DNA from: a virus
IMG/VR virus record: IMGVR_UViG_3300023115_000079
Span: 1 to 28,929 of that record
Reading direction: 5' to 3' (one strand)
DNA: 28,929 nucleotides
Part shown: in pieces, positions 10,046-27,195 of the stretch
Layout of the letters: every line of letters starts with the position of its first letter
How positions within the stretch are numbered: the stretch's first letter is position 1
Program-made: the position numbers and the translations under genes
Notes under the pieces: generated by a model
Databases searched by the model: none
Seen by the model: only the letters and a program-made list of their open reading frames with translations
What the model was told of the DNA's origin: nothing

Positions 10046-10348
10046 ATGCCAATTTACAATTTTGAATGCAATAATTGCACTAATAATTTTTTATCATTAG
10101 AAAATATTAACGAAGAACCCGATAAATGTCCAGAATGTTTAGAAAGCAAAGGGTTTAAAAAATTAGTATCGGCTTCTGTAATTAGAACAGCAGGTAAAAA
10201 AAGTATGAGTGTAAAGCAAACAACAAGTGAATATTTTGGACCTAACGGTCCGATTAAAAAAGAAGAATATTTTCCAGAAGAAGTTAAGAGGAAAACCGAA
10301 GAAGAGCGTAAAAAAAGAGACGGAAAAGGGTCAAGTATTATAGTCTAA
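10046..10348 (+). CDS. FmdB-type zinc-ribbon protein
   Basis: A 100-residue protein with the FmdB-family start MPIYNFEC and two CxxC pairs (C8/C11 and C28/C31) that should bind one zinc ion. Spacing between the pairs fits a small zinc ribbon. The C-terminal half is highly charged and lysine-rich, including the stretch EERKKRDGKG. FmdB-like proteins are called putative regulators, but their role in phages is not settled. The ATG is four bases after the giant gene and has no clear Shine-Dalgarno sequence, so translational coupling is likely. Its TAA stop interlocks with the TAG stop of the opposite-strand HAD gene (10345-10348). Confidence 0.8.
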   Translation: MPIYNFECNNCTNNFLSLENINEEPDKCPECLESKGFKKLVSASVIRTAGKKSMSVKQTTSEYFGPNGPIKKEEYFPEEVKRKTEEERKKRDGKGSSIIV

Positions 10349-10938: not shown

Positions 10939-10939
10939 A

Positions 10940-11287
10940 TTAATTTGTAATTATAAAATTATCTTTTTCAGTTTCTCCTGCAGAAACTTCTGCTAAACTT
11001 CCACTTTCTTTTAAACAAGTAATTTGATATGGAACTAATTTAGGTATTGTAAATGTGTTTCCGTCTTGTAGTTCTTGGGATTTTAGTTCACCGGATGTAG
11101 TATCAATTATTTGCAATAAAAAATTTCCTGAATTAATAAAAAAACTTTTATCAGTATCTTTATGGAAAATTAATTTAGTTTTTGCTTTTTGTCTTGAAAA
11201 AACATGAATCTTTGCTGAATAATTATCAAAATTTGCCCAATGCAAAAAATATCCATAATCAGTTTCTTTTACATTTTCATTTGACAT
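10940..11287 (-). CDS. Cupin-fold protein with degenerate metal site
   Basis: A 115-residue single-domain protein with a cupin-like strand pattern, including LIFHKDTDKSFFINSG (residues 39-54) and GNTFTIPKLVPYQI (76-89). Cupins usually bind a metal through HxH and E in the first motif and H in the second. Here H42 remains, but the second His is D44, the Glu is not evident, and the second-motif His is Y87. It most resembles the small sugar-isomerase-type cupins, without their full ligand set, so binding without catalysis is as likely as an enzyme role. It has a ribosome-binding site (AAGGTAA) and sits 7 bases after the Nudix gene and one base before the HAD gene. Confidence 0.65.
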   Translation of the reverse strand: MSNENVKETDYGYFLHWANFDNYSAKIHVFSRQKAKTKLIFHKDTDKSFFINSGNFLLQIIDTTSGELKSQELQDGNTFTIPKLVPYQITCLKESGSLAEVSAGETEKDNFIITN

Positions 11288-11294
11288 ATTACCT

Positions 11295-11726
11295 TTATTC
11301 TAACTCATTTATGTATTTGAGAATTGTTTCAATTTTTATTTGATTAATTTTATTGTTTAATGTATTTTTTAGTCCATGATGTAAGGGCCTTGGCCATTTT
11401 CCTAATGATACCCAAGCATACCCATTGTGTTCACAATTTAATATAGGAGAAAATTCTTTTTCTACTAAACAAAGATAAGTGTGGAATAAAAAATGGTCAT
11501 CTTTACTAACAAAAGTTTCTAAAGGTATAATTTTTTTTATATTAATTTCACCTACTTCTTCTTGAACTTCTCTAAAAAGCCCATTAGTTGGTGTTTCAAA
11601 TTTTTCATTTGTTCCACCAACTAATCCCCAAAAATTAGAATACTTACCTTTTGCTCTGTGTAAAAATAAGAATCTTTTGTAATCTAAAGAATAAAATAAA
11701 GCGCCACTGCAAACTATTTCTTTCAT
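11295..11726 (-). CDS. Nudix hydrolase
   Basis: A 143-residue protein with a complete Nudix box: G38, E44, R52-E53, E56-E57 and G59, fitting G-x5-E-x7-REVQEEVGE. Before it lies FLFLHRAKGKYSNFWGLVGG, the usual strand that leads into the box. Nudix enzymes cleave nucleoside diphosphates linked to another group. The substrate (nucleotide sugar, dNTP, cofactor or RNA cap) cannot be told from sequence. Unlike its HAD and cupin neighbours, its catalytic signature is whole. It lies between gp15 (13 bases upstream) and the cupin (7 bases downstream) on the same strand and so is probably on the gp14-gp15 late transcript. No clear Shine-Dalgarno sequence precedes the ATG. Confidence 0.9.
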   Translation of the reverse strand: MKEIVCSGALFYSLDYKRFLFLHRAKGKYSNFWGLVGGTNEKFETPTNGLFREVQEEVGEINIKKIIPLETFVSKDDHFLFHTYLCLVEKEFSPILNCEHNGYAWVSLGKWPRPLHHGLKNTLNNKINQIKIETILKYINELE

Positions 11727-11739
11727 GTAAATAGTTATC

Positions 11740-13206
11740 TTAAAAATTTATACGCCATGCTCCATGTGGATATTCTCCTTCAAAACTTAAAATCCACTCT
11801 CCGTTAATAAATTTATATTGTATGCCTGTGTTTAGATTTGTTGTGTAAACAATATCAGTTCCATTAGTGCTTGCGTCAAAAACAATTGTCCAATTATTAC
11901 CATCCCACTCAATAATATCATTGGCTTCTGCTGTAAAATCACTACCATTGTTATTTTTCCATGCATCTGCACCATCTGAATTATTTAAAGAACCTATATT
12001 TTCATTTAATAATAAAAGTCGCAAACCAGTTGATTTTAAATTACTAGGATTTGTTTTTAACGGATCAATAATATAATCTATTTTTGTTTTACTACCAGTT
12101 GGACCAATAAAAATTGTATCACTTGGCAGTGTATCAATATCCCAATTAACACTCATTATAAAATCATCTAATGGGTTAAAAGATAAATTTCCAACAATAT
12201 CACTATCTAAATCATTTCTATATAAATGTATTTCTGAAAGACCAGGATTAAATACGTCTGGATATGCGTCTAAGTATTCTCTCCATGTAACTAGTTTAGC
12301 CGAAGCAGTATTTGGTATTAATTTCAATGTATTATTAATTACTAGTAAATCATAATCTTTATAAGTGGTTGCAATAACAGCATCGGTATCGGGTCGACTT
12401 GCAATTAAATCGCCAAATTCATTTTGCGATGTTCCATCATTATTAGTTGCAGGGAAGTGTTTTGCATCGGATTTGTATCTACTGTCGGCATATGCTAATA
12501 ATTCTGGCATAGTTTGTTGTAGATCCACATTGCCATAAGACTCATTAAAAATACTTGTTATGATTGTATGTATAATACCAAGTTTTTTAACTTTAGCAGG
12601 AGCTGAAATGTATATAGGCGTACTAAAACCTAAAGTTGCAATATCTATTTCACTTTCTGTACTTGTTCCTATACTTCTACTACTAAAAGTTATATTTTCT
12701 AAATTTACTACACTTAAACTAGTCCAGTCTACAAAATTATCAGTAGTTTGTATCTCTAAACTTGGATTAAACAACATAAGAATTTGTTCTAAGATTTGTA
12801 ATTTTTGATCTGTATTTGTTGACCAAATATCTGCATTAACTGATAAATTATATGGAGTTGGCATTAATCTTTCAACTGTATAATTTTTACCTTGCATGTT
12901 TAGATATTCTTCGTTGTTCGCATCATATGCCCGCTCTCTAATATTAACCTTACTTACAAAACTACTATCAGATAATCTAGACCTATCTAATTCTAAACCA
13001 GTTATGTATACTGAAATCTTTGGTGCTCCTATTAATTTTAATTCTGAATTATCTTTCAGTATAGATCCAACTTGCCGAGCTAAATCTCCATACACAACAG
13101 GAATAGTTTTAATATTTCCTTCAATATCTTTATGACTAAAATTACTCAACATCCTGACAATTTGAGTTATGTATCTTCTGATTTGACCATCATAAAAATG
13201 TTGCAT
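11740..13206 (-). CDS. gp15: gp15-like proximal tail sheath stabiliser / tail terminator
   Basis: A 488-residue protein. The N-terminus (MQHFYDGQIRRYITQIVRML) corresponds to the T4 gp15 start, with the conserved aromatic-rich F-Y...RRY pattern, and residues about 115-145 (PYNLSVNADIWSTNTDQKLQILEQIL) match the gp15 core, where T4 also has an EQIL segment. gp15 caps the tail tube and sheath and joins the tail to the neck. T4 gp15 is 272 residues. The extra length is mainly a C-terminal region (about 250-488) ending in an EWDGNNWTIVFD segment and a Trp-rich tail, a form I associate with marine T4-like phages. Its Shine-Dalgarno sequence (AAGGTGA) overlaps the stop codon of gp14, so the two neck and tail-end genes are translationally linked. 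Confidence 0.85.
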   Translation of the reverse strand: MQHFYDGQIRRYITQIVRMLSNFSHKDIEGNIKTIPVVYGDLARQVGSILKDNSELKLIGAPKISVYITGLELDRSRLSDSSFVSKVNIRERAYDANNEEYLNMQGKNYTVERLMPTPYNLSVNADIWSTNTDQKLQILEQILMLFNPSLEIQTTDNFVDWTSLSVVNLENITFSSRSIGTSTESEIDIATLGFSTPIYISAPAKVKKLGIIHTIITSIFNESYGNVDLQQTMPELLAYADSRYKSDAKHFPATNNDGTSQNEFGDLIASRPDTDAVIATTYKDYDLLVINNTLKLIPNTASAKLVTWREYLDAYPDVFNPGLSEIHLYRNDLDSDIVGNLSFNPLDDFIMSVNWDIDTLPSDTIFIGPTGSKTKIDYIIDPLKTNPSNLKSTGLRLLLLNENIGSLNNSDGADAWKNNNGSDFTAEANDIIEWDGNNWTIVFDASTNGTDIVYTTNLNTGIQYKFINGEWILSFEGEYPHGAWRINF

Positions 13207-13214
13207 TATTCACC

Positions 13215-14381
13215 TTACACATTATCGGTTTTAGCCTTAAGAGCTTTACTTACACTCTGTCTTTCAGGCACAGTCTCACCAGCGACTGTTGTAATATTTG
13301 TATTGTTAATAAACGTACCTTTTTGCGTACTTCTATCATTAGTTTGAGTCATTGTCATACGAACATTATCTTCCATCTTAATCCAGCGTCTTCCGTCATA
13401 TCTAAATAATCTATTTGGAATCATATCTGTCCTTAAAAAATAATCTCCTTTTACACTACCTTCAGGAAAAAGAGTACCATGACCAAAAATTTCGCCATTA
13501 GGGGCTATTCCATCACCAAGTAAGTAACCTGTATATCCTGTCCTTTCTGGAGTTTGCATAACTCTATCTGCTAATTCATTTGCCACACTTGCATCTAATT
13601 CTGTTAAATCAGCTGTAACTAACTCTACTCTACCTTCATCATTTGTTTGCAATGTAAAATAATGTCCAGTTTCGTAACCACTTTTCTTTGCATCAGCTTC
13701 TGCTTGTGCAATCACTGCATTATTAACTTGCATGTCTTTTTCATATGTTGATAATAAGTCTCGTAGACTACCTGCAGCAGGAACTTCTTCGTCCATTGGT
13801 AGATCAAGAATTTCTTTAAATTCTTGACTATCTACTATCTGCTTGCATTTTAATCTATACAAATGAGGGTACCATGTTGGACTGTATCCTTCTGCTGCTC
13901 TACTTACTTCTTCAACAACATAATAACTCTTGAGTGCAACATGAAAATCATTTGCAGCGTATTCATCCTTCATGTGTGGTAATTCAATAACATCTCCGCT
14001 CATTATTTTGCGACCTATTGTTTTTACCGAACTATTAATATGAATAGTCATAAAAAGAGTGTCGTTATTCAAAAATAATCCAAACTGACTTAAATTAAAA
14101 TCAATATCTTGAACGCTATAAATTCCTCTAATTGTATAGACATCCGGATCGTATTTCCTATCTCTATTTTCTAAAAATAGCAAATCTTGTATGTTTGTTT
14201 CAGTTATAGCATCATAGTGAGGAATGTCTGCAGTTGCATCTTCCTCAGTTGGATTTTTTGGTCCTAAATATTTGTGGATATTTACATCTGTTCCTCCAAC
14301 AGTAAACATTTCAAATATTCGTGCATCTATAAAATTGTAATCATTCCCTTTACTGGGTTTATATAAAGATATTCTAGGCAT
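13215..14381 (-). CDS. gp14: gp14-like neck protein
   Basis: A 388-residue protein aligned by pattern with T4 gp14 (256 residues). Shared features are an N-terminal Y/H-rich start, NIQDLLFLENRDRKYDPDVY where T4 has an INDIMQQLV...Y segment, then FLNNDTLFMTI and the K-x-MSGDVIELPHM turn. gp14 with gp13 forms the neck ring that seals the filled head and receives the tail. The C-terminal third carries GDYFLRTDMIPNRLFRYDGRRW (shortened here to its key residues G, D, T, YDG, W), a small module also seen in gp18 and a fibre. The ATG has no Shine-Dalgarno sequence. A GATAAATA promoter motif lies only four bases upstream, which suggests a leaderless or nearly leaderless message. Confidence 0.85.
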   Translation of the reverse strand: MPRISLYKPSKGNDYNFIDARIFEMFTVGGTDVNIHKYLGPKNPTEEDATADIPHYDAITETNIQDLLFLENRDRKYDPDVYTIRGIYSVQDIDFNLSQFGLFLNNDTLFMTIHINSSVKTIGRKIMSGDVIELPHMKDEYAANDFHVALKSYYVVEEVSRAAEGYSPTWYPHLYRLKCKQIVDSQEFKEILDLPMDEEVPAAGSLRDLLSTYEKDMQVNNAVIAQAEADAKKSGYETGHYFTLQTNDEGRVELVTADLTELDASVANELADRVMQTPERTGYTGYLLGDGIAPNGEIFGHGTLFPEGSVKGDYFLRTDMIPNRLFRYDGRRWIKMEDNVRMTMTQTNDRSTQKGTFINNTNITTVAGETVPERQSVSKALKAKTDNV

Positions 14382-14425: not shown

Positions 14426-15184
14426 ATGACTGAATTAGCTACATTAAGACAAGAAGTTTACGATTACATTCACAACATGCTAGGTGGAGGAATGGTAGAT
14501 GTAGAACTGGATCCTGTACACTATGAAACTGCTTTAGATAAAGCTTTATCACGATATAGGCAACGTAATGAAAATAGTACAGAAGAAAGTTATTTTTTTA
14601 TGCCAACAATTGTAGATCAAAATACCTACACCTTACCAAAAGAAATTTTAGAAGTAAGGCGTATTTTTAGACGTAGTATTGGCTCTCGAACAGGTGGTGG
14701 TGACGGTGGTAGTATTTTCGAACCATTTAACTTAGCATATACAAATACCTATTTACTTGCAAGTTCTAATTTAGGCGGGTTAGCAACCTATGATTTTTTT
14801 AGTCAATTCCAAGAACTTGTAGGAAGGATGTTTGGATCTTTTATAGAATTCAATTGGAATAGGACACGTCATGTCTTAACAATACTACAACGACCTAGAG
14901 CAGAAGAAACGTTATTACTAGAGTGTTATAACTACAGACCAGACGATCAATTATTAAGTGATTATATGGGTAATGTTTGGATAAAAGACTATGCTTTAGC
15001 AATGTGTAAAATGATGCTTGGCGAAGCACGATCTAAATTTGCTACAATAGCCGGACCACAAGGCGGTGGACAACTGAATGGTGATGCATTAAAAGCCGAA
15101 GCACAAGCAGAAATGGAAAAATTAGAACAAGAAATTTCTACAGCAGTTGCAGGCGGTACAGGATATGGATTTATTATAGGCTAG
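14426..15184 (+). CDS. gp13: gp13-like neck protein
   Basis: A 252-residue protein matching the marine T4-like gp13 pattern: an N-terminal helix TLRQEVYDYIHNML, LDPVHYETALDKALSRYRQR, then YFFMPTIVDQNTYTLPKEI, and later YNYRPDD followed by WIKDYALAMCKMMLGEARSK. gp13 caps the portal after packaging, together with gp14. It is shorter than T4 gp13 (309 residues). A Gly-rich insertion (GGGDGG) lies near residue 92. The start ATG follows AGGAG by ten bases and lies just right of the divergent promoter palindrome. The stop codon interlocks with that of the opposite-strand HNH gene in the palindrome CTAG. Confidence 0.9.
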   Translation: MTELATLRQEVYDYIHNMLGGGMVDVELDPVHYETALDKALSRYRQRNENSTEESYFFMPTIVDQNTYTLPKEILEVRRIFRRSIGSRTGGGDGGSIFEPFNLAYTNTYLLASSNLGGLATYDFFSQFQELVGRMFGSFIEFNWNRTRHVLTILQRPRAEETLLLECYNYRPDDQLLSDYMGNVWIKDYALAMCKMMLGEARSKFATIAGPQGGGQLNGDALKAEAQAEMEKLEQEISTAVAGGTGYGFIIG

Positions 15185-15519
15185 AAATCTGGAAGCAAAT
15201 CTCCCTGTTTCCATTTTACTCCCTCTTTATACAAAATACGTTGACAATTAGCACAAATTGTTTTTAAATTGTTAATTCTGCAATTATTTAAATTTCCATC
15301 AATGTGGTATACATTAAATTGTTCAGGATAATTACTTTTATAATTACATTTTTCACAAAAAGTTTTCTTAATATAACCTGATTGTTTCCATTTTGGAATA
15401 CCAATACAAACAGTTGGTGTTTTTAGACAAATATCACATTTTTTTCTATAATAAATTTTATTATTTTTTTTATAATTAATTGCAGCTGGTCTAAATCCAC
15501 AGATACACAAAGGTCTCAT
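15181..15519 (-). CDS. Small HNH-type zinc protein, possible free-standing endonuclease
   Basis: A 112-residue protein with eight cysteines in four pairs (C5/C7, C28/C31, C55/C58, C89/C92) and an HNH-like core: YHIDGN (H72, D74, N76), NN at 78-79, NNL at 83-85, then C89-x2-C92. In standard HNH nucleases the residue after the last Cys is usually His; here it is Gln (Q93). The start MRPLCICG resembles a family of small zinc proteins that I recall from T4-like cyanophages. HNH enzymes nick or cut DNA. A homing-type or regulatory role is possible. It lies between gp13 and gp18 on the opposite strand. A GATAAATA motif sits four bases before its ATG and no Shine-Dalgarno sequence fits in between. 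Confidence 0.75.
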   Translation of the reverse strand: MRPLCICGFRPAAINYKKNNKIYYRKKCDICLKTPTVCIGIPKWKQSGYIKKTFCEKCNYKSNYPEQFNVYHIDGNLNNCRINNLKTICANCQRILYKEGVKWKQGDLLPDF

Positions 15520-15631: not shown

Positions 15632-18600
15632 ATGGCACTAGTATCACCAGGTGTAGAGGTTAAAGTAGTTGACGAGAGTTTTTATACTCCAGCCGAACCA
15701 GGCACCTTACCTTGTATTTTTGTAGCAACAGCTTCAAACAAACCCAACGGAGCCGGCACAGGTACAGCTCCTGGAACATTAGCAGTAAATGCTGGTGTAC
15801 CGTATCTTATAACATCACAAAGAGATTTAGTAGATACCTTTGGCGATCCAATCTTTAAAACAGATAACAACAACAATCCAATTCATGGAGGAGAACTTAA
15901 TGAATACGGACTGCAAGCTGCGTATTCTTATTTAGGAATTGCAAATAGAGCTTACATCGTAAGAGCAGATGTAGATTTAGCTGCTTTAGAAGGGTCGCCT
16001 ACTGCTCCTGGAGCTGATCCAGCAGATGGAACTTATTGGTTAGACACAAGTACTTCGTTATGGGGTATTCAAGAATGGAACGGAGCATCTATCTTAGATG
16101 GGGGGCAAAATTTCACAGTAAGAACACCAATTGTGATAACCGAAACTACCGATCTTGTTGTAAACGGTGGCTCAGTAGCTGTTAACGGATTTGCAGGAGA
16201 TATTCCAAAAAAATCTGTTGGTTTAGAAGGTTCATATGCTGTAATCGCTACAACAACTTTAAATAAAATTTTCTACAGAGCAACAACTGAATGGGTTCTT
16301 GTTGGAAGCGATGCATGGCGAAAAAGTTGGGCAAGTGTAAGAGGAACAGCAGTTAACACTGTTTTCTCAAATGATGTTGGTGCAGTTGCTGCAGATTTTG
16401 ATATTAATGGAGTTACTATCGTTGTAAGTCCAGGAAACACTGTAGAAGATGTGAAAAATACAATTATTACAAATCATCCAAACGGAAATATATCAGCTGC
16501 AGTTGTTGACGGCAGACTTGAAATTTATAGCGATGGCACAGATGGAGTAGGTGGCGAAGTTGAGACAATTGTTTTAACAAATAATCCAAGTGCTAATATT
16601 AACCCATTGTCTGAGCTTGGTATTGCTTTTGATATAGGTACCGGACAAGCAACATATTATGTTCCTGCTTTAGAAATAAATCCTCATACTATTGTACCAG
16701 AATATAAAAGTACAGCAGATCAGCCTCGACCAACTGGATCTATATGGTTAAAAACAACTAGTCCAAATAAAGGTATGGCATTTTCAGTTCAAAAATGGAA
16801 CGATAACACAAAGTTATGGGAGCAACAAGATATTTCAGTGTATGGAAGCAATCAAGAAGCCCTTTACACATTAGATAGAAGTGGAGGAGGCAGCACGTTA
16901 CTTACAGGAGAAATTTATGCTCAAACAAACATTGGAAATGCTAGCCGACCGGTAGCAACAATCAAATTTTATAGAAGAAACGATATAGCGCCTACCCAGA
17001 TTACTGGATCAAGAATAAGTACTCAAATGAGTGGCAATGCCCAAACATTCACCGTACAAGTATCCGATGCAGGAGAATTAGATTTGTTGGCAGCAGTAAC
17101 AATCTCAGTAGATTTTACTGGAACAACAACCGATGCAACTGCTTTAGCAGATGCAATAAACGGAGCCGGCGTTAAGAATTTAAGTGCAAATGTAAGTGCT
17201 CAAAATAAAGTAACGATATCGCATTCTTTAGGCGGAGAAATGAAATTTGTAGATACAGACGGTGTATTAGCGTCTGCTGGTTTTGTTCCATACCAAGATG
17301 AAACAACAGGAGTAGAAAACCTGTATTATTGGCCTGGTACTGATACTAATACAAGTCCGTGGCAATTACAGGGAACTTTATGGAAAGTTTTAAGTTACAC
17401 AGCAAGCGATACTGAAGTTGTAGCAGACACTGCTGATAATTCTTTATGGTACAGTTCTATTATTGACGAAGTTGACATTCTTGTCCACAACGGTAGTGAA
17501 TTTGTAGGATATCAATACGATGGTGCATCAGGTATGTCAGGTACCGCTAGCCCATATTATACTGCAATTGAAGCAGACCAAACTGATCCTAATGGACCAA
17601 TAGTAAGTGCGTCAATGCCAAAAACTCAAAGCGATAACACTGCTCTAGTTACTGGAGATCTATGGATAGATACTTCGAATATAGAATTATATCCTCAAAT
17701 TTTTAGATATAATAATGATAGGACAGACTTACCAAAAGCAAATAGATGGTTTATTTTAGATACGTCAGATCAAACAACAGAAGATGGTGTTTTATTTGCT
17801 GATGCAAGATATAATACATCAGGTGTGAATAGCGATAAACCAGGAGATATTGTAGATTTGCTGGCTAGCGATTATGTTGATCCAGATAGTCCTGATCCAG
17901 CATTATATCCTAAAGGAATGTTATTATTTAATCTAAGACGAAGTGGTTTCAATGTTAAAAGATACAAGAAAAACTATTATGATTTAGCCGGTAAGAATGT
18001 AAGATATAATAACGAATCAATGACTGGGTTGACTCCAGAGACTACATATTTTCCTGATAGATGGGTAACTGAATCAGGAAATCAAGTTGATGGTAGCGGA
18101 TCGTTTGGAAGCATTGCACAAAGAAAAGTTGTTGTTCAACAATTGCAAGCTGTTGTTAACAGCAATGATGAAATTAGAGATGACGAATCGAGATTATTTA
18201 ATTTAATGGCTTGTCCGGGATATCCAGAGCTAATTGGAGAAATGAATTCATTAAATTATGATAGAAACCTATCAGCATTTATTGTAGGCGATTCACCGTT
18301 TAAATTACAACCAAATGCTACTGTGCTTAATGAATGGGCAACTAATGTCAATGGAGCAACAGAAGACAATATTGTTGGTTTAACTTCAGCAGATCCATAC
18401 ATTGCAGTTTATTATCCAAGCGGTTTTACAAGTGATAATTTTGGTAATAATATTGTTGTTCCGGCTAGTCATATGATGTTAAGAACTATTGCTTTAAGCG
18501 ATCAAGTTTCTTATCCTTGGTTTGCACCTGCAGGAACAAGAAGAGGTAACATAACTAATGCAACATCAAGTGGAACTGTTACAGCTGAAGGCGAATTTAA

Positions 18601-19048
18601 AACTTTGGCAATGAATGAAGGTATGCGAGATACACTATATTCAAATAATGTAAACCCAATTACTTTTATAACTGGTGCTGGACTTGTATGTTTTGGGCAA
18701 AAAACAAGACAATTAACTGCTAGTTCTTTGGATAGAATAAATGTTGCAAGACTTATAATTTATTTAAGAAGTCAATTGAAAGTTTTAGCTAAACCTTATC
18801 TTTTTGAACCAAATGACAAAATTACAAGAGATGAAATCAAGCAACAAACTGAAACGTTATTGCTTGAACTTGTTGGACTAAGAGCATTGTATGACTTTTT
18901 AGTGGTGTGTGACGAATCTAATAATACACCTTCTAGAATAGACAGGAATGAATTATATGTAGATATTGCTATTGAGCCAGTGAAAGCAATTGAATTTATC
19001 TACATACCATTAAGAATTAAGAATACCGGCGAAATATCCGGGCTTTAA
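15632..19048 (+). CDS. gp18: Contractile tail sheath protein, enlarged
   Basis: The N-terminus (MALVSPGVEVKVVDESFYTP) and C-terminus (YPWFAPAGTRRG, NPITFITGAGLVCFGQKT, then FEPNDKITRDEI) are clear T4 gp18 sheath features. The protein forms the rings that contract to drive the tube into the host. At 1138 residues it is far longer than T4 gp18 (659). The extra sequence lies between residue about 115 and 800 and includes several copies of a short module of the form G-x-x-W-x-D-T-S...W or Y (DGTYWLDTS at 132, GSIWLKTTS near 370, GDLWIDTSN near 675). The conserved inner sheath domain takes up roughly residues 800-1138. It is preceded by TATAAATA and AGGAG, and gp19 follows 30 bases later behind its own motif. 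Confidence 0.93.
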   Translation: MALVSPGVEVKVVDESFYTPAEPGTLPCIFVATASNKPNGAGTGTAPGTLAVNAGVPYLITSQRDLVDTFGDPIFKTDNNNNPIHGGELNEYGLQAAYSYLGIANRAYIVRADVDLAALEGSPTAPGADPADGTYWLDTSTSLWGIQEWNGASILDGGQNFTVRTPIVITETTDLVVNGGSVAVNGFAGDIPKKSVGLEGSYAVIATTTLNKIFYRATTEWVLVGSDAWRKSWASVRGTAVNTVFSNDVGAVAADFDINGVTIVVSPGNTVEDVKNTIITNHPNGNISAAVVDGRLEIYSDGTDGVGGEVETIVLTNNPSANINPLSELGIAFDIGTGQATYYVPALEINPHTIVPEYKSTADQPRPTGSIWLKTTSPNKGMAFSVQKWNDNTKLWEQQDISVYGSNQEALYTLDRSGGGSTLLTGEIYAQTNIGNASRPVATIKFYRRNDIAPTQITGSRISTQMSGNAQTFTVQVSDAGELDLLAAVTISVDFTGTTTDATALADAINGAGVKNLSANVSAQNKVTISHSLGGEMKFVDTDGVLASAGFVPYQDETTGVENLYYWPGTDTNTSPWQLQGTLWKVLSYTASDTEVVADTADNSLWYSSIIDEVDILVHNGSEFVGYQYDGASGMSGTASPYYTAIEADQTDPNGPIVSASMPKTQSDNTALVTGDLWIDTSNIELYPQIFRYNNDRTDLPKANRWFILDTSDQTTEDGVLFADARYNTSGVNSDKPGDIVDLLASDYVDPDSPDPALYPKGMLLFNLRRSGFNVKRYKKNYYDLAGKNVRYNNESMTGLTPETTYFPDRWVTESGNQVDGSGSFGSIAQRKVVVQQLQAVVNSNDEIRDDESRLFNLMACPGYPELIGEMNSLNYDRNLSAFIVGDSPFKLQPNATVLNEWATNVNGATEDNIVGLTSADPYIAVYYPSGFTSDNFGNNIVVPASHMMLRTIALSDQVSYPWFAPAGTRRGNITNATSSGTVTAEGEFKTLAMNEGMRDTLYSNNVNPITFITGAGLVCFGQKTRQLTASSLDRINVARLIIYLRSQLKVLAKPYLFEPNDKITRDEIKQQTETLLLELVGLRALYDFLVVCDESNNTPSRIDRNELYVDIAIEPVKAIEFIYIPLRIKNTGEISGL

Positions 19049-19078: not shown

Positions 19079-19705
19079 ATGGCTATAGCAACATTATCTA
19101 AAATGACAGTGCCCTTAGCATCCGGTGATTCAGCATCATCGCAAGGGCTATTAATGCCAAAATTACAATATCGATTTAGAGTATCGTTTAATAATTTTGG
19201 TGTAAAAACACCTACTACTGAATTGACAAAACAAGTTGTAGATTGCAGCAAACCAAATTTATCATTTGATCAAATAACACTAGATGTTTATAACTCTAGG
19301 GTTTATTTAGCAGGAAAGCATACTTGGGAACCAATTACAATTAACTTACGTGAAGATGTCAATAACGAAGTACAAATTCTAGTAGGTGAGCAGTTACAAA
19401 AACAATTTGACTTTTATGAGCAATCTAGTGCAGCTTCTGGATTAGATTATAAATTTACAACTGTAATAGAAATATTAGACGGCGGAAATGCAGCAAATGT
19501 ACCAACTGTTTTAGAAACTTTTGAACTTTATGGATGCTATTTAGAAAGTGCTAATTACAACAGTTTAAATTATGCTGAATCTGCACCTGTAACAATTACT
19601 TTAAACATTAGATACGACAATGCAATTCAAACACCACAAGGTGTAGGTATTGGAACAGCTATTGCTAGAAATGTAAGCACTCTAGCAACCGGCGGTGGAA
19701 TCTAA
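19079..19705 (+). CDS. gp19: Tail tube protein
   Basis: A 208-residue protein placed directly after the sheath gene, as in T4. The pattern LMPKLQYRFRVSF...VVDCSKPNLSF...ITLDVYNSRVYLAGKHTWEPI (segments separated by other residues) is that of the gp19 tube fold, followed by a C-terminal ELYGCYLES and VTITLNIRYDNAI strand pair. It polymerises on the baseplate into the inner tube through which DNA passes. It is slightly longer than T4 gp19 (163 residues). The ATG follows AGGAG. A strong hairpin lies just after the stop codon. Confidence 0.9.
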   Translation: MAIATLSKMTVPLASGDSASSQGLLMPKLQYRFRVSFNNFGVKTPTTELTKQVVDCSKPNLSFDQITLDVYNSRVYLAGKHTWEPITINLREDVNNEVQILVGEQLQKQFDFYEQSSAASGLDYKFTTVIEILDGGNAANVPTVLETFELYGCYLESANYNSLNYAESAPVTITLNIRYDNAIQTPQGVGIGTAIARNVSTLATGGGI

Positions 19706-19756: not shown

Positions 19757-20797
19757 ATGGGAATATTCGACGGTTTTTTTGACAATCTTGTAAGTGGCAT
19801 CCTCAATCCAAAAGGAAATTTAGCTGATTGGCGACACGCAAGTCGAACGTTTGTTAAAAATAGTTTTCGATTAGCTCCAAAAGTAAAATTCCTATATCAT
19901 GTTGCTTTTACATTTAGTCCAGCAATACAAAAAACTTTGCCTACCTGGAATGAAAAAAAACATGGTCTAGAAGCTGGTATAATTGTAAAATCCGCCGATT
20001 TGCCTAGTTTTTCTGCAAACATTGAAACAAAAAAGAAATATAATAGAACAGCAAATATTCAAACTGGAATTCAATACAATCCAGTTAATATATCTTTGCA
20101 CGATGACAATCTAGGAATAGCTACTGGATTATTTGAAGCTTATTACAGATATTATTTTGCGGATGCAAATTATGGCACTGATGAACTAAGACGTGCATAT
20201 GATAAAAGTTGGCCTGCAAGAGATAGCACTTATTTAGGCTCAGAAAGAAATCGATATACATTTGGTTTGCACAATCAAATTACCGATCCATTCTTTAAAG
20301 ATATACAAATAAGTCAAATGACTAGACATACGTACACTACATACACACTTGTAAATCCAATTATAACAGAATGGAAACATGGAGATGTAAATTCTGCTGA
20401 CGGAAGTAGCACAAATGAGAATACTATGACTGTTGCATATGAAACAGTTTGGATTGATAGAGGTGGTACTGAAGCAGGACCAGATGGAGATCCAAAAGGA
20501 TTTGGAGATCTTCCTCATTATGATGTAACTCCTAGTCCTATTACTTTAGTTGGTGGAGGGTCTGTGTCATTAGGTGCAGTTTTGTCAGGTGCAGCCGATT
20601 TATTTGATTATGGAAGAACTGGCAAAGGATTTAGCAATCCAATTGCTGCAGCTATTGCAGGTGTAAATTTATTAAACAATATTCAAAATCTTACACAGGA
20701 AGGTATTACCGAAGACATTACTAACATTATCACATCAGGATCAGATAGTGTTTATGACAATGTAGTAAGTGGACTTCCTAACACAAGTTTTGATTAA
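19757..20797 (+). CDS. Second tail-tube-fold protein (gp19/gp54-like)
   Basis: A 346-residue protein. Residues about 75-135 (VKSADLPSFSANIETKKKYN, then GIQYNPVNISLHDD) parallel the gp19 segment in this window by pattern (V-x-x-[SC]...P...YN...G...[YW]-x-P-[VI]-x-I...[DE]-D), so it appears to share the tube fold. T4 uses such a protein, gp54, to start tube assembly on the baseplate, and gp48 is related. The C-terminal 100 residues are Gly/Ser/Asn-rich with an Ala/Ile stretch (NPIAAAIAGVNLL). It has no good Shine-Dalgarno sequence and follows the hairpin after gp19. It is best read as a tube initiator or baseplate-tube connector. The exact T4 counterpart is uncertain. Confidence 0.65.
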   Translation: MGIFDGFFDNLVSGILNPKGNLADWRHASRTFVKNSFRLAPKVKFLYHVAFTFSPAIQKTLPTWNEKKHGLEAGIIVKSADLPSFSANIETKKKYNRTANIQTGIQYNPVNISLHDDNLGIATGLFEAYYRYYFADANYGTDELRRAYDKSWPARDSTYLGSERNRYTFGLHNQITDPFFKDIQISQMTRHTYTTYTLVNPIITEWKHGDVNSADGSSTNENTMTVAYETVWIDRGGTEAGPDGDPKGFGDLPHYDVTPSPITLVGGGSVSLGAVLSGAADLFDYGRTGKGFSNPIAAAIAGVNLLNNIQNLTQEGITEDITNIITSGSDSVYDNVVSGLPNTSFD

Positions 20798-20805
20798 GGA
20801 GATTT

Positions 20806-21273
20806 ATGACAGATTTGCCAAGTAAGATTAGAAAAAATTCAGAAACAAAAGTTATTAGATATTTTGATCAATATTTTAATAAACCTGTAGAAATAGCAGC
20901 TAGTGAATATGATGCTGTTCTTGGGTTTTTTGAAAAAAGAGAGTTTGATACAACTGCTGCAAGAGTAATAACGCAAGTTTTAATAACACAGGCACGAGCA
21001 GAAGGTATTAAAGTTTTTTCCTTGATTGATAGTCTACAAGGTTTGCAAAAAAAACAGCTAAGTTCTGTAATTACAAAAATTATTAATCTTAGTAGAGATA
21101 AAACATCTCAATTAGGTTACAAAACTAAAAGTCAAAATAACTTGCGTGAATTACGAAATTTAAAAGATCCTGTTGTAACTACAATAAATATAATAGAAGA
21201 CGTAGCCGAAGATCCAGTGCAGGATGTTAACTATATTGAACCGGGCTATGTACAAATAGGATATGTAGAATAA
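20806..21273 (+). CDS. Conserved marine T4-like helical protein of unknown function
   Basis: A 155-residue protein, mostly helical in the first two thirds. The segments ASEYDAVLGFFEKREFD and TAARVITQVLITQARAEGIK are familiar from marine T4-like phages, but I know no assigned role. The C-terminal 40 residues are acidic and proline-containing and end in YVQIGYVE. The start has a good ribosome-binding site (AAGGAG). The stop overlaps the next start as TAATG, so it is coupled to the fibre gene. The context (after tube genes, before fibres) suggests a tail or baseplate assembly factor. Confidence 0.7.
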   Translation: MTDLPSKIRKNSETKVIRYFDQYFNKPVEIAASEYDAVLGFFEKREFDTTAARVITQVLITQARAEGIKVFSLIDSLQGLQKKQLSSVITKIINLSRDKTSQLGYKTKSQNNLRELRNLKDPVVTTINIIEDVAEDPVQDVNYIEPGYVQIGYVE

Positions 21274-22793
21274 TGGCAATAGTATTAAGACTTTCAAAAG
21301 GCGATACTCTTACATATGCAGAATTAGATGGAAACTTTTCTGATCTAGACACAAGAGTTATATCGTTAGAAGCAAATAAAACAAATTGGGACCAAGCATA
21401 TACATGGGGAAACCATGCAGCTCAAGGGTATTTAACTTTTTATACCGAAACTGATCCAGTTTTTGTAGCAAGTGCTGCATATGACATAACTACTCAAAAT
21501 ATTAATAATTGGAGCACTGCTTATAATTGGGGAGATCATTCTTCTGTAGGATATTTAACATCAATTAATACCGAAAGCATAGGAAATTTAAGCGATGTAG
21601 ACTTGAGCAATTCACCAAATATTGGTAATACATTGCAATGGAATGGCACTGCTTGGGTACCATCGCAATCAAGCGGAAGCGAAACAGATCCGGTGTTTGG
21701 AACAAGTCCTGCTGCTACAATTGATAATACTATGATTAGCAATTGGAACGATGCATACAGTTGGGGAGATCATTCTTCTGTTGGATACTTAGGCAGTAGT
21801 CATCCTACTGCTAATATTGTTGCTTCTAATATAACCAATTGGAACGATGCATACAGTTGGGGAGATCATTCTCTTGCTGGATATTTAACATCGTTAGGAA
21901 GTATTGCCAATCATTCAGATGTTAGTTTATCAGGAGTTACAGACGGATTTACTCTTGTATGGCAAACTGATAAATTTGTGCCCCAAGCAGTAAGCGGTGG
22001 TACAAATGTTAGTATTGCCGATACTAGTCCCACTAACGCTGTCAATGGCGACATGTGGTGGGATTCAAGCGACGGCGTGCTAAAAATTTATTACAATGAC
22101 GGTACAAGTTTGCAATGGGTAGATGCAGTCCCGCAAGGCGGGGGTGCAGGAACATCATATACAAATTCTGATGTAGATAACCATCTAAATCAATCCGGAC
22201 CTACTGATGGCTATGTATTAAGTTGGTCAAGCGGTGACTATGCATGGGTAGCACCAAGTGGATTGTCAATACCATGGACACGATTTTATTTTGATAGAGG
22301 TGGTGTGACTCCTACAACAGTAGCTAATAGTGAAAATGTAGGAAAGAATTTTGGATCATGGACTGAGACTACATCATCAAATAATGGAACATCTGGTATT
22401 ACTCCATCAAGCGCAATTTATGACCCAACACTTTCTGGTGTTACAGTTAACGCTAATGGCGAATTTGAATTTCCTGCAGGTGTCTATGAAGTACATGCGT
22501 CTATTCAGTTTAAAATCTATAATACAACCGGAAATTTACAAAAATATGATTTTTATCTTTATGCAGAATCAGGTACAAATTGGGCAGGAAGTTACGATGA
22601 ACAATTGTTAGTACCTGATACGTCTACGCTTGTTGATAATAATATGATGATTAAGATAAGCGGACTATACGTATTCGAAAATGCAACACAAACAAATAAT
22701 ATATTATATTTACAAATGGGTAGTACAACGTCTCCTGTTAATGCAAATATGTTTCCAGATTATGGATATTTAGATATTAAGAAAATAGGATAG
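21273..22793 (+). CDS. Tail-fibre-like protein with W-G-x-H repeats and a C-terminal jelly-roll-like domain
   Basis: A 506-residue protein. The start (AIVLRLSKGDTLTYAELDGN) is typical of phage fibre N-termini. Four repeats of the form NW-x2-AY-x-WG-[ND]-H-x3-GYL start at residues about 38, 79, 157 and 189. The last two share an identical 36-base DNA stretch. A GDMWWDSSDG...W module, as in gp18 and gp14, lies near residue 260. From about residue 330 the sequence looks like a C1q/TNF-type beta sandwich (FEFPAGVYEVHASIQFKIY), a fold common at receptor-binding tips. The host-contact role is inferred. Its start overlaps the previous stop (TAATG), and the next fibre gene starts 5 bases after it. 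Confidence 0.75.
   Translation: MAIVLRLSKGDTLTYAELDGNFSDLDTRVISLEANKTNWDQAYTWGNHAAQGYLTFYTETDPVFVASAAYDITTQNINNWSTAYNWGDHSSVGYLTSINTESIGNLSDVDLSNSPNIGNTLQWNGTAWVPSQSSGSETDPVFGTSPAATIDNTMISNWNDAYSWGDHSSVGYLGSSHPTANIVASNITNWNDAYSWGDHSLAGYLTSLGSIANHSDVSLSGVTDGFTLVWQTDKFVPQAVSGGTNVSIADTSPTNAVNGDMWWDSSDGVLKIYYNDGTSLQWVDAVPQGGGAGTSYTNSDVDNHLNQSGPTDGYVLSWSSGDYAWVAPSGLSIPWTRFYFDRGGVTPTTVANSENVGKNFGSWTETTSSNNGTSGITPSSAIYDPTLSGVTVNANGEFEFPAGVYEVHASIQFKIYNTTGNLQKYDFYLYAESGTNWAGSYDEQLLVPDTSTLVDNNMMIKISGLYVFENATQTNNILYLQMGSTTSPVNANMFPDYGYLDIKKIG
21741..21872 (+). repeat. Identical 36-base direct repeats encoding W-G-D-H units
   Basis: Bases 21741-21776 and 21837-21872 are identical and in phase, 96 bases (32 codons) apart. 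Both encode NWNDAYSWGDHS. Two more diverged copies lie upstream at about 21384 and 21507. Identity at DNA level points to a recent duplication or recombination within the fibre. Confidence 0.8.
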
Positions 22794-22798
22794 AAAAA

Positions 22799-23677
22799 AT
22801 GGCAATTAATTTTCCAGATTCACCAACAATTGGACCACCTGCTACTACACACACTGTAGGAGATGTAACATGGACTTGGGATGGAACGACTTGGCGTGCA
22901 ACAGCATCGGGCGGTTCTAGTTATGTTTTACCACCCGCAACTACAACAGTCTTAGGTGGTGTAAAAATAGATGGCTCTACAATTACAATAGACGGAAATG
23001 GTGTAATATCATCTACAGCATCAGGCGATGTAACAAAGGCAGCAAGTTCTACTGATAATGCTTTGGTTAGATTTGACGGTACCAACGGAGATACTTTACA
23101 AAATTCTCTCGTTCAAATATCAGATATAGGACAAATATTGGCTCCAAAAGTTGAAGGGCATATAATTCCTTTTTATTACAATAGTCAGGCCGCTTTTCCT
23201 ACAATGACAGCTGATACTCGAGGTATCATAGCTTACAGTGAATTTGATGGCAATCTTTTTTTCTGTGACACAGCTGAATATAAAAGGTTAGCAAATTATA
23301 ATGAAAGACGTGAGCTAACCACAACTTCTGCTACAATAAATAATGGTAACTATGCTTTTGGTACAATAACAGGATACGGAAGTTATTACTTGTTTAAAAT
23401 CGAAGTATCGCATGCCGCATGGGTAATTGTATATTCAGATACTATTTCAAGAACAGCAGACGGAACAAGAAACGAAACGGAAGATCCTTTGCCGGGATCA
23501 GGCGTAATTGCAGAAGTAATTACAACAGGAGCAGATACTGTAATTTTTACACCTGCTACAATTGGATGGAATAATGCATCTCCAAAAACTTCAGATATAT
23601 ATTTAAAAGTATGGAACAAATCTGGATCAAGTGCGGCTATTACTGTAACCTTAACGGTTCTACCAATAGAAGATTAA
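22799..23677 (+). CDS. Tail-fibre-like protein
   Basis: A 292-residue protein. The N-terminus (MAINFPDSPTIG, then GDVTWTWDGTTWRAT) is a common start in marine phage fibre proteins. A VLGGVKIDGSTITIDGNG segment near residues 51-68 is typical of fibre shafts. The C-terminal 130 residues are a beta-rich domain (YAFGTITGYGSYYLFKIEV ... YLKVWNKSGSSAAITVTL) that may be the tip. No enzyme motif is seen. It lies between another fibre gene (5 bases upstream) and the subtilase gene (3 bases downstream), so all three are probably translated from one message. Host recognition or decoration of the tail is the likely role, by inference. Confidence 0.7.
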   Translation: MAINFPDSPTIGPPATTHTVGDVTWTWDGTTWRATASGGSSYVLPPATTTVLGGVKIDGSTITIDGNGVISSTASGDVTKAASSTDNALVRFDGTNGDTLQNSLVQISDIGQILAPKVEGHIIPFYYNSQAAFPTMTADTRGIIAYSEFDGNLFFCDTAEYKRLANYNERRELTTTSATINNGNYAFGTITGYGSYYLFKIEVSHAAWVIVYSDTISRTADGTRNETEDPLPGSGVIAEVITTGADTVIFTPATIGWNNASPKTSDIYLKVWNKSGSSAAITVTLTVLPIED

Positions 23678-23680
23678 TAT

Positions 23681-26600
23681 ATGGAAAAATACATTGTAAC
23701 GTGTACTTCATCTGAAGTCTTAGAAACTTTATATATTGACATGGAAACAGCTGGCGGAAATGGAATAATTCCTGACCGAGCAGTTGAATGTAAAAAAAGA
23801 TTAAGAAATTCAAGAAATACAGTTTATATATTGACTGCTGAAGAGGCAGAAAATCTAAAACAAGATGAACGAATTACAAACATTGTAAAAGAATCTGACA
23901 TTTTACTCCACGAACCTAAACCTAACGGATATACTCAGTTTTCTCAATATTGGAAAAAAAATTCTACGCAATTAACTGGCGAAGAAAAGAATTGGGGTTT
24001 AAAAAGATGTATAGATGGTACTCAAAGAGAAGAATTTTGGGGTTACAATGGATATGATACCGTATCTGGTAAAATTACAAATACAATGTCAGGAAAGAAT
24101 GTAGATGTAGTTATTATTGACGGACATTTAAATCTTTTACATCCTGAATTTGCAAAACATCCTTTAGGCATTGGAGAATCGAGAGTAAAACATTTAGATT
24201 GGGATGTATTTACTAATTATATCGATGGAACTACTTTAGATTTGCCAACAACAAATGGAACCTATATTTATGGCGATGGACTTGGCGGATTTACTGAGTA
24301 CGGAGCTAATCACGGAATGCATGTTGCAGGCACTGTTGCAGGAAATACACAAGGCTGGGCAAGAGATGCTAATATTTACAATATATCTCCTTATGGCTCA
24401 GGCGGTGCAGGAACCGTAGCTAATCCTAACAATTCAGATTATAGGGTCTATTACGAAAATTATGTAAAATCTTTTCATGAACTCAAACCTATAAATCCAA
24501 AAACTGGTGTTAAAAATCCTACTGTTGCAAATGGAAGTTTTGGTACATATTATGCAGCATTTAGAGATAATACAACCACAATTAATTATCAAGGAGCTAT
24601 TGTTTCTACTGATCCTAGTCAAGATAGCGATGCCCAATTACAACTATGGAATTGGGGCGACTTTAATGAAAATTTTGTTTACTCGCCGTATAGACCAGAT
24701 TTGTCAGATCCTAGTATAATTGAAATACAAGATATGCTTGCTTCAGGAGTCATATATGTTATTGCTGCAGGAAATGCTCTCGATTATTATGCAGCAGAAA
24801 ATGATATTAACTGGAACAATTATTTTACAAGCTCTGTAATTACAAACGGCGGATTACCGATAAATTGGTATTATAGTAGAGGTGACTATAAAGCTCTAGG
24901 TGGTGCTATTTCTGCAGGGAATCTTATTGCATTTTACGTACAATTAAAAAGATCCGATTCGGCTAGAGGACCAGGTTTAGACTTATGGGCACCAGGAGAT
25001 AATATTATGTCCTCGATACATGCTATTGGAGATAGTGGTTCTACAGGCGTAATACAAGATCCAAGAAATTCAAACTTTTATTTAGACATGTATGGCGGAA
25101 CTAGTATGGCAAGTCCGCAAATTGCAGGAATGATTGCATGTTTAGCAGAATTATATCCAAACATGACTAATGAACTTGCCAAAGAATATATAAAAGGAAC
25201 AGCAACTACTGGAGAAATGGACAACTTCCTAATTTCTCAAGATTTATCAGATGCATGGTATCTTGCAGATAGTACAGATAAAGTAGCCTTTAATAAACTT
25301 ATTAGACAAATTAGCGGAAATGTAAGCGACAAAACACACGCTTATAGACCAAGTACAGGAGTTGTTTATCCTAGGAAGAAAATTAAAAAATTTAATCCAA
25401 AGCATATTAAAGAGTGGTATCCTATATTCATAGGATATGCAAATATGGGACCTGATCATTTTAAGATTACAGGCGAAGATTTTAATGGTAGTTTTACTAA
25501 TAGAGACACAAGTGTAACCGGAGTAACAATAGGATTAGGAGATGCAATCAGTTTTGCAAATCTGTGGGGCAGTGGTGCAGTGTCAGGCGCTCATCCTATT
25601 CGAATTAGCAGCACAGTTGGAGGTAATGAACATGCTGATGTAATTAATAATTCTCAGGCATCATACACATTCTTTCCACAAGCCGCAGGCACATACTATG
25701 CTTTTTGCACTAATCATAATTCTATGCAATGCGAAATTACTGTATTACCTGCTCCTACATATTCAGTTTCGTCTCCAACATCAACTGCAGCAGAAGGTAA
25801 TTCTTTTACATTTACTGTAACAACAACGAATGTAAAAGATAAGACATTGTTGTATTATGAAGCGGAATTAACAGGTACAACAGAAAACACAGATACAGAT
25901 CCAGTTAAAGGAGTAGTAGAAGTAATTTCTAATACAGCAACAATAATTGTTGAGCATACAGAAGATTATTTATCAGAAATTTTTACCAAGCAATTTGTGT
26001 TGCAGGTAAGAACAGATTGGGCTGACGGACCTACAGTAGCGTCAAGCGCAGTTAAGACTCTTTCTTCTAGCACAACAAGTTTAGTAACACAAGTAACAGC
26101 AGGAGATAGAGAACTTACGTTAGGCGAAGGATCGTCTGATTGGCTACCAAGAGATTGGGTAGAAATTAGAAATTCAGAATCAGATGAACAGGGATACACT
26201 ATACAATGTCCATTTACCTTTTATGTAAATGGAACAGCATACACCAATTTTTTCATACATCCTAACCAATATATTCTATTTGGGTCAACTGCATCTGTTT
26301 TTAATTTTGCTGATAACAGTCCGGCAGCAAATAAAATTTTTATTGGAGCCTACGATACTAATTATCATAGACTTGCTTCATTTACAGATCCAGGTAGCAG
26401 ATTTGTCCGTGTTCGTGTTGAAGGAAACTGGACGTACCAAGAAAGCACGCCTACCGAATTTGCTACAGTTAATTATGAATTTACTGTTTTTAACCCAGAT
26501 TATACCGCAAGTAATGGTACAACGTTTGAAATATTGTTAGGTAATAGACTCACAAGAGGCACAGGTAGTGTCGTAGACGGATTTAACAATACAACTTTTG

Positions 26601-26758
26601 TTGGAATTTATAACTCCACAACAAGACTTGCTCCTGCTACAGCGCAAACTGTTACAGCAAATGCCAGTTATACCATTGTTGGAGATTCTAACGGCAATAA
26701 CTGGACTTGGACAAACAATTCGCATATTGTAAGTCAAGGAGGCACCACTGTTTATTAA
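23681..26758 (+). CDS. Subtilisin-like serine protease fused to a cupredoxin-like domain
   Basis: A 1025-residue multidomain protein. Residues about 3-75 resemble an I9-type propeptide (TVYILTAEEAENLKQDERI). The S8 catalytic domain, about 80-545, has D147 (VVIIDGHLNLLHPEF), H211 (GANHGMHVAGT), oxyanion N365 (IAAGNA) and S475 (GGTSMASPQIAG), so it should be active. The D147 motif reads DGH instead of the usual D-[ST]-G. Residues about 590-690 look like a cupredoxin, with H638 (AHPIRIS) and C676-TN-H679-NS-M682, the spacing of a type-1 copper site. An EGNSFTFTVTTTNV beta-sandwich (about 695-795) and a beta-rich C-terminal region follow. There is no signal peptide. Placed with fibre genes, it may be a virion component that cuts host surface proteins or matures fibres. 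Its stop overlaps the next start (TAATG). Confidence 0.85.
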   Translation: MEKYIVTCTSSEVLETLYIDMETAGGNGIIPDRAVECKKRLRNSRNTVYILTAEEAENLKQDERITNIVKESDILLHEPKPNGYTQFSQYWKKNSTQLTGEEKNWGLKRCIDGTQREEFWGYNGYDTVSGKITNTMSGKNVDVVIIDGHLNLLHPEFAKHPLGIGESRVKHLDWDVFTNYIDGTTLDLPTTNGTYIYGDGLGGFTEYGANHGMHVAGTVAGNTQGWARDANIYNISPYGSGGAGTVANPNNSDYRVYYENYVKSFHELKPINPKTGVKNPTVANGSFGTYYAAFRDNTTTINYQGAIVSTDPSQDSDAQLQLWNWGDFNENFVYSPYRPDLSDPSIIEIQDMLASGVIYVIAAGNALDYYAAENDINWNNYFTSSVITNGGLPINWYYSRGDYKALGGAISAGNLIAFYVQLKRSDSARGPGLDLWAPGDNIMSSIHAIGDSGSTGVIQDPRNSNFYLDMYGGTSMASPQIAGMIACLAELYPNMTNELAKEYIKGTATTGEMDNFLISQDLSDAWYLADSTDKVAFNKLIRQISGNVSDKTHAYRPSTGVVYPRKKIKKFNPKHIKEWYPIFIGYANMGPDHFKITGEDFNGSFTNRDTSVTGVTIGLGDAISFANLWGSGAVSGAHPIRISSTVGGNEHADVINNSQASYTFFPQAAGTYYAFCTNHNSMQCEITVLPAPTYSVSSPTSTAAEGNSFTFTVTTTNVKDKTLLYYEAELTGTTENTDTDPVKGVVEVISNTATIIVEHTEDYLSEIFTKQFVLQVRTDWADGPTVASSAVKTLSSSTTSLVTQVTAGDRELTLGEGSSDWLPRDWVEIRNSESDEQGYTIQCPFTFYVNGTAYTNFFIHPNQYILFGSTASVFNFADNSPAANKIFIGAYDTNYHRLASFTDPGSRFVRVRVEGNWTYQESTPTEFATVNYEFTVFNPDYTASNGTTFEILLGNRLTRGTGSVVDGFNNTTFVGIYNSTTRLAPATAQTVTANASYTIVGDSNGNNWTWTNNSHIVSQGGTTVY

Positions 26759-27195
26759 TGGCACGTTTTGCACAAGGTAGATTCCGCTGTAAAAATCCAG
26801 AAAAATATATAGGCAGTAGTACACCTTTGTATAGGAGTAGCTGGGAGTTTACTATGATGCGATTTTGTGACGAACACCCTAGCATAACACAATGGGTATC
26901 AGAAGGTATTAAAATTCCCTATATCAATCCTCTAACTGGTAAAAGAACAGTCTATGTACCAGACTTTTTAATCCAATTCAGTGATAAAACAGGAAAAGTT
27001 AGAACAGAACTTATAGAAGTAAAACCTGCAAATCAAACGCTACAAGAAAAAATTGGACGTAGCAGGAACAATCAAGCACACTATGCACTCAATCAAGCTA
27101 AATGGGCAGCAGCCAAAATGTGGTGTAAAAAACAAGGAATAATCTTCAGAGTTATTACTGAAAATGACATTTTTCATTATGGAGCAAGGAGGTAA
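26758..27195 (+). CDS. gp4: gp4-like head-completion protein with PD-(D/E)XK nuclease-type motif
   Basis: A 145-residue protein starting at the ATG inside the TAATG overlap with the subtilase stop. The start MARFAQGRF followed by KNPEKYIG and YRSSWEF is the T4 gp4-type head-completion pattern. The residues E30, P68-D69 and E87-V88-K89 are spaced as in PD-(D/E)XK nucleases, and an Asn/Gln-rich helix follows. In T4 this protein is needed to finish packaged heads before tail joining, possibly by acting on DNA ends. The length is close to the family norm. A TTG start at 26707 is open in the same frame, but it lies inside the subtilase gene and adds no family sequence. Confidence 0.85.
   Translation: MARFAQGRFRCKNPEKYIGSSTPLYRSSWEFTMMRFCDEHPSITQWVSEGIKIPYINPLTGKRTVYVPDFLIQFSDKTGKVRTELIEVKPANQTLQEKIGRSRNNQAHYALNQAKWAAAKMWCKKQGIIFRVITENDIFHYGARR

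Follow-up and report, generated by a model that had tools for sequence, protein, structure and literature searches.

A subtilase with a cupredoxin-like domain in a fibre-protease gene pair of tailed phages

INTRODUCTION

Could the tail of a phage carry a protease, and if so, what would a copper-type domain be doing beside it? This question is raised by a single long reading frame of an aquatic phage. The frame lies in an IMG/VR virus record that is linear and 28,929 bases long (a fragment of 28.9 kb); the whole of this stretch is referred to here as the window. A first-pass annotation had read this frame as a propeptide-like segment, a subtilase, and a type-1-copper-like domain followed by beta-sandwich domains, had suggested that it forms an unusual host-entry device on the phage particle, and had proposed structure prediction and profile searches as checks. 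Cupredoxins are well known in cells. In the open-access PMC literature, searched also for phage-tail subtilases, we found no paper on a phage-tail cupredoxin or on the gene pair described below, an absence that is weak evidence in itself, and the domain is not named as copper binding in the libraries and papers searched. Phage subtilases are already annotated in several cyanophage genomes.

RESULTS AND DISCUSSION

Gene order at the locus

The genes surrounding the frame are as follows.

21273 to 22793, plus strand: first fibre gene, 506 amino acids (aa), with repeats; PHROG 9729 (tail fiber protein), E 2e-59
22799 to 23677, plus strand: second fibre gene, the partner gene of the protease, 292 aa; PHROG 15343, E 7e-49
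23303 to 23674, plus strand: conserved fibre C-terminal domain (FCD, a name coined here), about 124 aa; 50 to 56% identity to S-CREM1, S-H38, and Sf-FR1
23681 to 26758, plus strand: subtilase-cupredoxin gene, 1025 aa, ATG start
26758 to 27195, plus strand: gp4-like head closure gene; PHROG 218, E 2e-44; Pfam TnsA-like N, E 4e-23

The coordinates and the PHROG 218 match bear out the earlier description of the locus, in which this gene, two fibre genes, and a gp4-like head gene are tightly packed. Three bases separate the second fibre gene from the protease gene, and the gp4-like gene begins on the last base of the protease stop codon, giving a one-base overlap. A tail sheath gene and two tail tube genes lie upstream of the run. 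In S-CREM1 and S-H38, the gene ahead of the protease is annotated “baseplate wedge subunit and tail pin” and is a homologue of the second fibre gene.

An S8 protease with a propeptide-like N terminus

The N-terminal half of the protein contains the following features.

23681 to 23929, plus strand: propeptide-like segment, residues 1 to 83, with I9-like topology in the secondary structure of the model
23930 to 25318, plus strand: S8 protease domain, residues 84 to 546; Pfam PF00082 and fold matches
24119 to 24121, plus strand: codon of catalytic D147, invariant in the 74-sequence alignment
24311 to 24313, plus strand: codon of catalytic H211, invariant in the same alignment
24773 to 24775, plus strand: codon of oxyanion-hole N365, likewise invariant
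25103 to 25105, plus strand: codon of catalytic S475, in the motif GTSMASPQ, likewise invariant

The Pfam profile PF00082 (Peptidase_S8) matches residues 139 to 512 with an E value of 5e-21 and 75.7 bits, above the curated cut-off of 21.8 bits. The Asp/His/Ser triad and the oxyanion Asn stand in their respective motifs, at the positions first assigned to them, and show no variation across the 74 aligned relatives. An AlphaFold2 model of the whole protein, for which this alignment served as input, is confident at residues 1 to 180 and at most of residues 205 to 545, and its S8 part matches the folds of keratinase (5wsl; Z 34.3, 278 residues aligned, rmsd 2.5) and aqualysin I (4dzt; Z 33.9). By profile, catalytic residues, and modelled fold, residues 84 to 546 are an S8 protease, and proteolysis is the predicted activity.

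Within the S8 family, the domain resembles the proteinase K/aqualysin I subfamily (fold Z about 34, 25 to 29% identity). Those enzymes are secreted with a signal peptide, whereas the window protease lacks one and is paired with a phage fibre; the search for a hydrophobic segment at the N terminus of the window protein found none, in agreement with the earlier remark that a secretion signal is missing. A propeptide-like segment is also supported by the model. Residues 2 to 75 are modelled as beta-alpha-beta-beta-alpha-beta, mostly at pLDDT above 80, which is the order seen in I9 propeptides, and the mature N terminus of proteinase K-like enzymes aligns at window residue 84. The Pfam I9 profile gave no match to the window protein itself and weak matches in 3 of the 74 relatives (best E, 0.014).

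A cupredoxin-like domain with a conserved type-1 ligand set

Downstream of the protease domain, the following features were assigned.

25439 to 25750, plus strand: cupredoxin-like domain, residues 587 to 690, from a family profile against the PDB, the model, fold matches, and conservation
25592 to 25594, plus strand: codon of putative copper ligand H638, kept in 62 of 64 non-redundant phage copies
25706 to 25708, plus strand: codon of putative copper ligand C676, kept in 61 of 64
25715 to 25717, plus strand: codon of putative copper ligand H679, kept in 61 of 64
25724 to 25726, plus strand: codon of putative axial ligand M682, kept in 61 of 64
25751 to 26755, plus strand: C-terminal region, residues 691 to 1025, strand-rich to about residue 795 and modelled at pLDDT below 50 thereafter

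Five poor or truncated copies are missing from one domain alignment (A3), and it is the set of 64 non-redundant phage copies that gives a fair count of conservation. The copper-like assignment had initially been put forward on motif spacing only; it now has a family profile, fold matches, and conservation behind it. The profile search gave two answers of different strength: the window copy alone matches Pfam Cupredoxin_1 weakly (E 0.02, under the Pfam cut-off), and a profile built from 67 phage copies finds blue-copper proteins in the PDB at E values from 4e-6 to 1e-4, with all four ligands aligned and the H638 column on the first His ligand of plastocyanins. The proteins found are plastocyanin, pseudoazurin, auracyanin, amicyanin, rusticyanin, and copper nitrite reductases; every one of the best 60 rows belongs to the cupredoxin kind, including one cytochrome oxidase subunit 2 and one two-metal relative. 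Glucose/ribitol dehydrogenase matches, obtained in a PDB search with a single sequence, disappeared once the profile was used and were rejected as spurious. Of the 67 phage copies, 59 match Pfam Copper-bind at E below 0.1.

Structure prediction points the same way at moderate strength. The domain was modelled separately with pLDDT 75 and pTM 0.70, a moderate confidence, and lies at pLDDT 60 to 80 in the full-length model. Compared by two methods, the domain model recovers mostly cupredoxins, among them amicyanin, rusticyanin, and nitrite reductase, and the Greek-key beta-sandwich fold is found, with moderate Z scores of 7 to 8.6. The top match (Z 8.6) has an rmsd of 5.3 over 103 residues, rusticyanin aligns with Z 7.8 and an rmsd of 2.9 over 97 residues, and amicyanin is found by Foldseek with a probability of 1.00 but an E value of 2.6e-3. 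The Z scores are modest, and it is the profile, the fold, and the ligands taken together that identify residues 587 to 690 as a cupredoxin-like domain with a putative type-1 ligand set, H/C/H/M in that order.

As for the claim that H638, C676, H679, and M682 are plastocyanin-like, the positions and the order are confirmed and the spacing is not. The ligand loop reads C-x2-H-x2-M in all 67 aligned copies; this is the amicyanin spacing, the plastocyanin loop being C-x2-H-x4-M, and plastocyanin proper was ruled out on that ground. The phage domain thus shares its fold and ligand order with amicyanin, rusticyanin, plastocyanin, and copper nitrite reductase and has a loop of the amicyanin type, but it differs from these blue-copper proteins in having HP instead of HN after the first His and in lying within a phage tail-region protein that has no known redox partner. 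The window copy is a divergent member of the family: it carries an insert before H638, HPI in place of HPF, and C684 where most copies carry G, and its His-Cys distance is 38, compared with mostly 43 to 47 in the family.

The conserved ligands make metal binding likely. A very unlikely alternative is that the site is empty or holds another metal; the domain would then be an adhesin-like beta-sandwich whose ligand residues persist because folding needs them. The HP that replaces the usual HN would suit such a domain, as would the cytoplasm in which phage proteins fold, which is reducing and poor in copper. However, multicopper oxidases likewise have HP at their first type-1 ligand, and the four ligands are conserved together at 95 to 99% in phages and cells although the phage copies share a mean identity of only about 47%, a pattern that is hard to explain without a metal. 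Nor can an intradomain disulfide account for the conservation, since 41 of the 67 copies contain a single Cys. Among 100 cellular copies, mostly from marine bacteria, the four ligands are kept in 98 to 99. These cellular domains, from marine Bacteroidetes, Alphaproteobacteria, and other organisms, belong to the same family as the phage domain; neither an S8 partner nor an FCD gene was detected beside them, with the single exception of a locus (L181) that is phage-like by gene content.

The beta-sandwich domains proposed beyond residue 700 are compatible with the modelled strands as far as about residue 795; past that point, where the model falls below pLDDT 50, they are not borne out. The C-terminal 337 residues have a single weak phage match, to a hypothetical protein of S-SRM01 (33% identity over 151 aa), and no relatives of them were found in IMG/VR.

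Relatives in cultured phages and viral contigs

A tblastn search with the window protein found 42 phage records, mostly cyanomyoviruses, and the match extends through the cupredoxin-like domain in S-CAM4, ACG-2014e, i, and j, and S-H9-1. PHROG 9158, a family of “unknown function,” matches residues 3 to 688 at E 1.5e-91 over profile positions 7 to 695 of 696 and so spans the S8 and cupredoxin parts end to end. Its members S-CAM4 N231010_190 and ACG-2014e Syn7803C85_176 have the same order of propeptide-like part, S8 domain, and C-terminal cupredoxin with the H/C/H/M ligands, but they end after the cupredoxin (about 680 aa), while the window protein continues for 335 residues and is only about 30% identical to them. 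The closest cultured relatives of the protease (36 to 38%) are in S-CREM1, S-H38, and Sf-FR1, where they are annotated as peptidase or subtilisin-like serine protease; these share the fibre-protease gene pair but lack the cupredoxin domain. The reverse is also seen, as P-SSM2 tail fibres and a large P-HM1 protein carry the cupredoxin without an S8 domain, and the domain recurs in PHROGs for the baseplate wedge-tail fibre connector, tail fibre, and tail spike.

In IMG/VR, at least 578 contigs match the S8 family. Both S8 and cupredoxin were present in 85 reading frames of the fetched loci, a count inflated by selection because the cupredoxin was among the queries and some loci represent the same contig. 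A pattern search with the single window sequence found no close relatives of the whole protein in IMG/VR. Nine aligned copies of the domain varied too much to serve as a pattern; relatives of the domain were sought with a single relative and with closer alignments. The idea that the fusion is unique to this phage was rejected, as it occurs in cultured cyanophages, in PHROG 9158, and in dozens of viral contigs. The device is likewise not the unusual one that it had been taken for: the fibre-protease pair, often with a cupredoxin domain, is widespread in aquatic phages.

A two-gene module with an optional cupredoxin

Of 133 distinct S8 genes, 124 are directly preceded by a fibre gene that ends in the FCD, and in the reverse scan, with the FCD as query, an S8 gene comes next in 54 of the 57 distinct loci with room downstream. 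S8 and FCD thus form a nearly obligate gene pair, and the two-gene module is a real unit. The FCD showed no significant match to Pfam. The order of FCD (about 124 aa, PHROG 15343) followed by S8 is nearly invariant in both search directions, in the window and in loci L095 to L174 and L258 to L333.

The position of the cupredoxin is far less fixed. Among the 133 S8 genes, it is fused to S8 in 58 cases, located in the FCD gene in 10, and found in neither gene in 65. It can be C terminal to S8, nested within S8 (L181 and S-CAM1), or part of the upstream fibre. In a tree built from the S8 part, at least seven changes of fusion state are required, three of them forced by well-supported branches; the window protein sits on a long branch, in a group whose members have the domain in the fibre gene, have it in the protease, or lack it. 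These repeated changes and the varied placement show that the cupredoxin is an optional accessory that moves between protease and fibre within the module. Many protease copies lack it, so the device does not have the copper-type domain at its core.

It is quite unlikely that redox chemistry of the cupredoxin at the host surface, through electron exchange with a host protein or copper-dependent damage, is what aids entry. Such a role would fit a complete and strongly conserved type-1 ligand set, the amicyanin-type loop, and homology to electron carriers. However, no redox partner was seen, the absence of the domain from about half of the sampled protease-fibre modules makes redox dispensable for the core function, and the domain also occurs in many fibre, baseplate, and cellular proteins that have no evident redox partner.

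Two loci show unusual arrangements. L181, filed under a Gammaproteobacteria metagenome-assembled genome, is phage-like: a fibre gene with a C-terminal cupredoxin is followed by an S8 gene whose cupredoxin is nested inside the catalytic domain, then by a heme oxygenase-like gene and another fibre-like gene (L181:6534-8945 and L181:4322-6274). The S-CAM1 tail fiber protein (L257:4993-7248) is of the S8 type, with cupredoxin-like parts inserted and an altered catalytic Asp motif (VDIVTLESG), and may be an inactive protease.

Proposed role

On balance, we favor the view that the window encodes a tail-borne subtilase that partners the fibre encoded upstream and cuts the host surface, with the cupredoxin as an exchangeable accessory, and we regard this as somewhat more probable than the alternatives combined. 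The protease would be synthesized as a zymogen in the cytoplasm of the host, as suggested by its propeptide-like residues 1 to 83 and the lack of a signal peptide, and would fold into a proteinase K-like enzyme that presumably processes itself. It would then be assembled into the tail together with its partner, the product of the adjacent upstream fibre gene, and would probably dock on the FCD of that fibre, as the gene order suggests. On the particle, it would most likely cut host-surface proteins (S-layer, outer-membrane, or pilus proteins are candidates), thereby opening the way for the fibre to its receptor. Whether on the protease or on the fibre, the cupredoxin-like domain keeps an intact type-1 ligand set; most likely exposed on the particle, it would take up copper outside the cell and act as a stable surface-binding module.

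The location of the protease in the phage tail or particle is supported indirectly, by the near-obligate pairing with a fibre gene and by the annotation of the S-SCSM1 relative, gp144 (1411 aa), as “baseplate wedge subunit (virion protein).” The recorded name of the S-CAM1 relative is tail fibre protein, and further relatives carry either that label or the label virion structural protein; these annotations, together with the occurrence of the same domain in PHROG tail families, argue for a tail module. That the protease instead works inside the host cell or at lysis, outside any virion, is most improbable: the virion location of the window gene product is itself a prediction, but the gene order and the relatives point to the tail, and the fused domain occurs in tail-fibre and baseplate families.

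The most serious competing explanation is that the enzyme serves tail maturation, with the fibre as its substrate. The subtilase would cut the phage's own fibre, for example near the FCD, during tail maturation and play no part in host entry, and the cupredoxin-like part would only anchor or fold it. The near-obligate pairing with the FCD suits an enzyme and its substrate as well as an enzyme and its carrier, and a cytoplasmic zymogen suits self-activation during assembly. We nevertheless consider this unlikely, since the baseplate and tail fibre annotations of the S-SCSM1 and S-CAM1 relatives suggest a structural part that is retained, and accessory domains of a surface type would be odd on a maturation enzyme.

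A bolder reading is that the tails of many aquatic tailed phages bear, on protease or fibres, a type-1 cupredoxin loaded with copper, which would serve as a metalloredox host-entry device. The cupredoxin would sense or exchange electrons with host surface proteins, or environmental copper would control adsorption or protease activity. We hold this to be doubtful. If the domain does hold copper, phage tails bear a class of metal center otherwise known from electron-transfer proteins, and infection could respond to how much copper the water contains; otherwise, something else must conserve the type-1 ligand set, and that would be worth knowing too. The analysis gives a likely chemistry to a large phage family listed without a function, and the fibre-protease gene pair, as defined here, is testable in cultured cyanophages.

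Other genes in the window

The tail sheath gene (15632 to 19048, 1138 aa) has its top phage matches in the jumbo phages Atu_ph07, Phosso, and PA5oct, not in cyanophages. Jumbo phages of Agrobacterium, Sinorhizobium, and Pseudomonas thus have the closest sheaths, and we did not adopt cyanophage as the host assignment. Atu_ph07 and Phosso encode S8 proteins too. The two tail tube paralogues adjoin each other (19079 to 19705 and 19757 to 20797), the second being far longer (346 aa). A minus-strand block (10345 to 14381) mixes structural genes, namely, a tail sheath stabilizer-like gene (11740 to 13206) and a virion structural protein gene (13215 to 14381), with a NUDIX hydrolase gene and a cysteine-dioxygenase-like gene. 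At the start of the window, which cuts it off, is a Nol-like carbamoyltransferase gene (2 to 1711; PHROG 1601, E 1e-155). Between the head-tail adaptor gene called by PHROG and the sheath gene lies a weakly HNH endonuclease-like reading frame on the minus strand (15181 to 15519), which is possibly a homing endonuclease.
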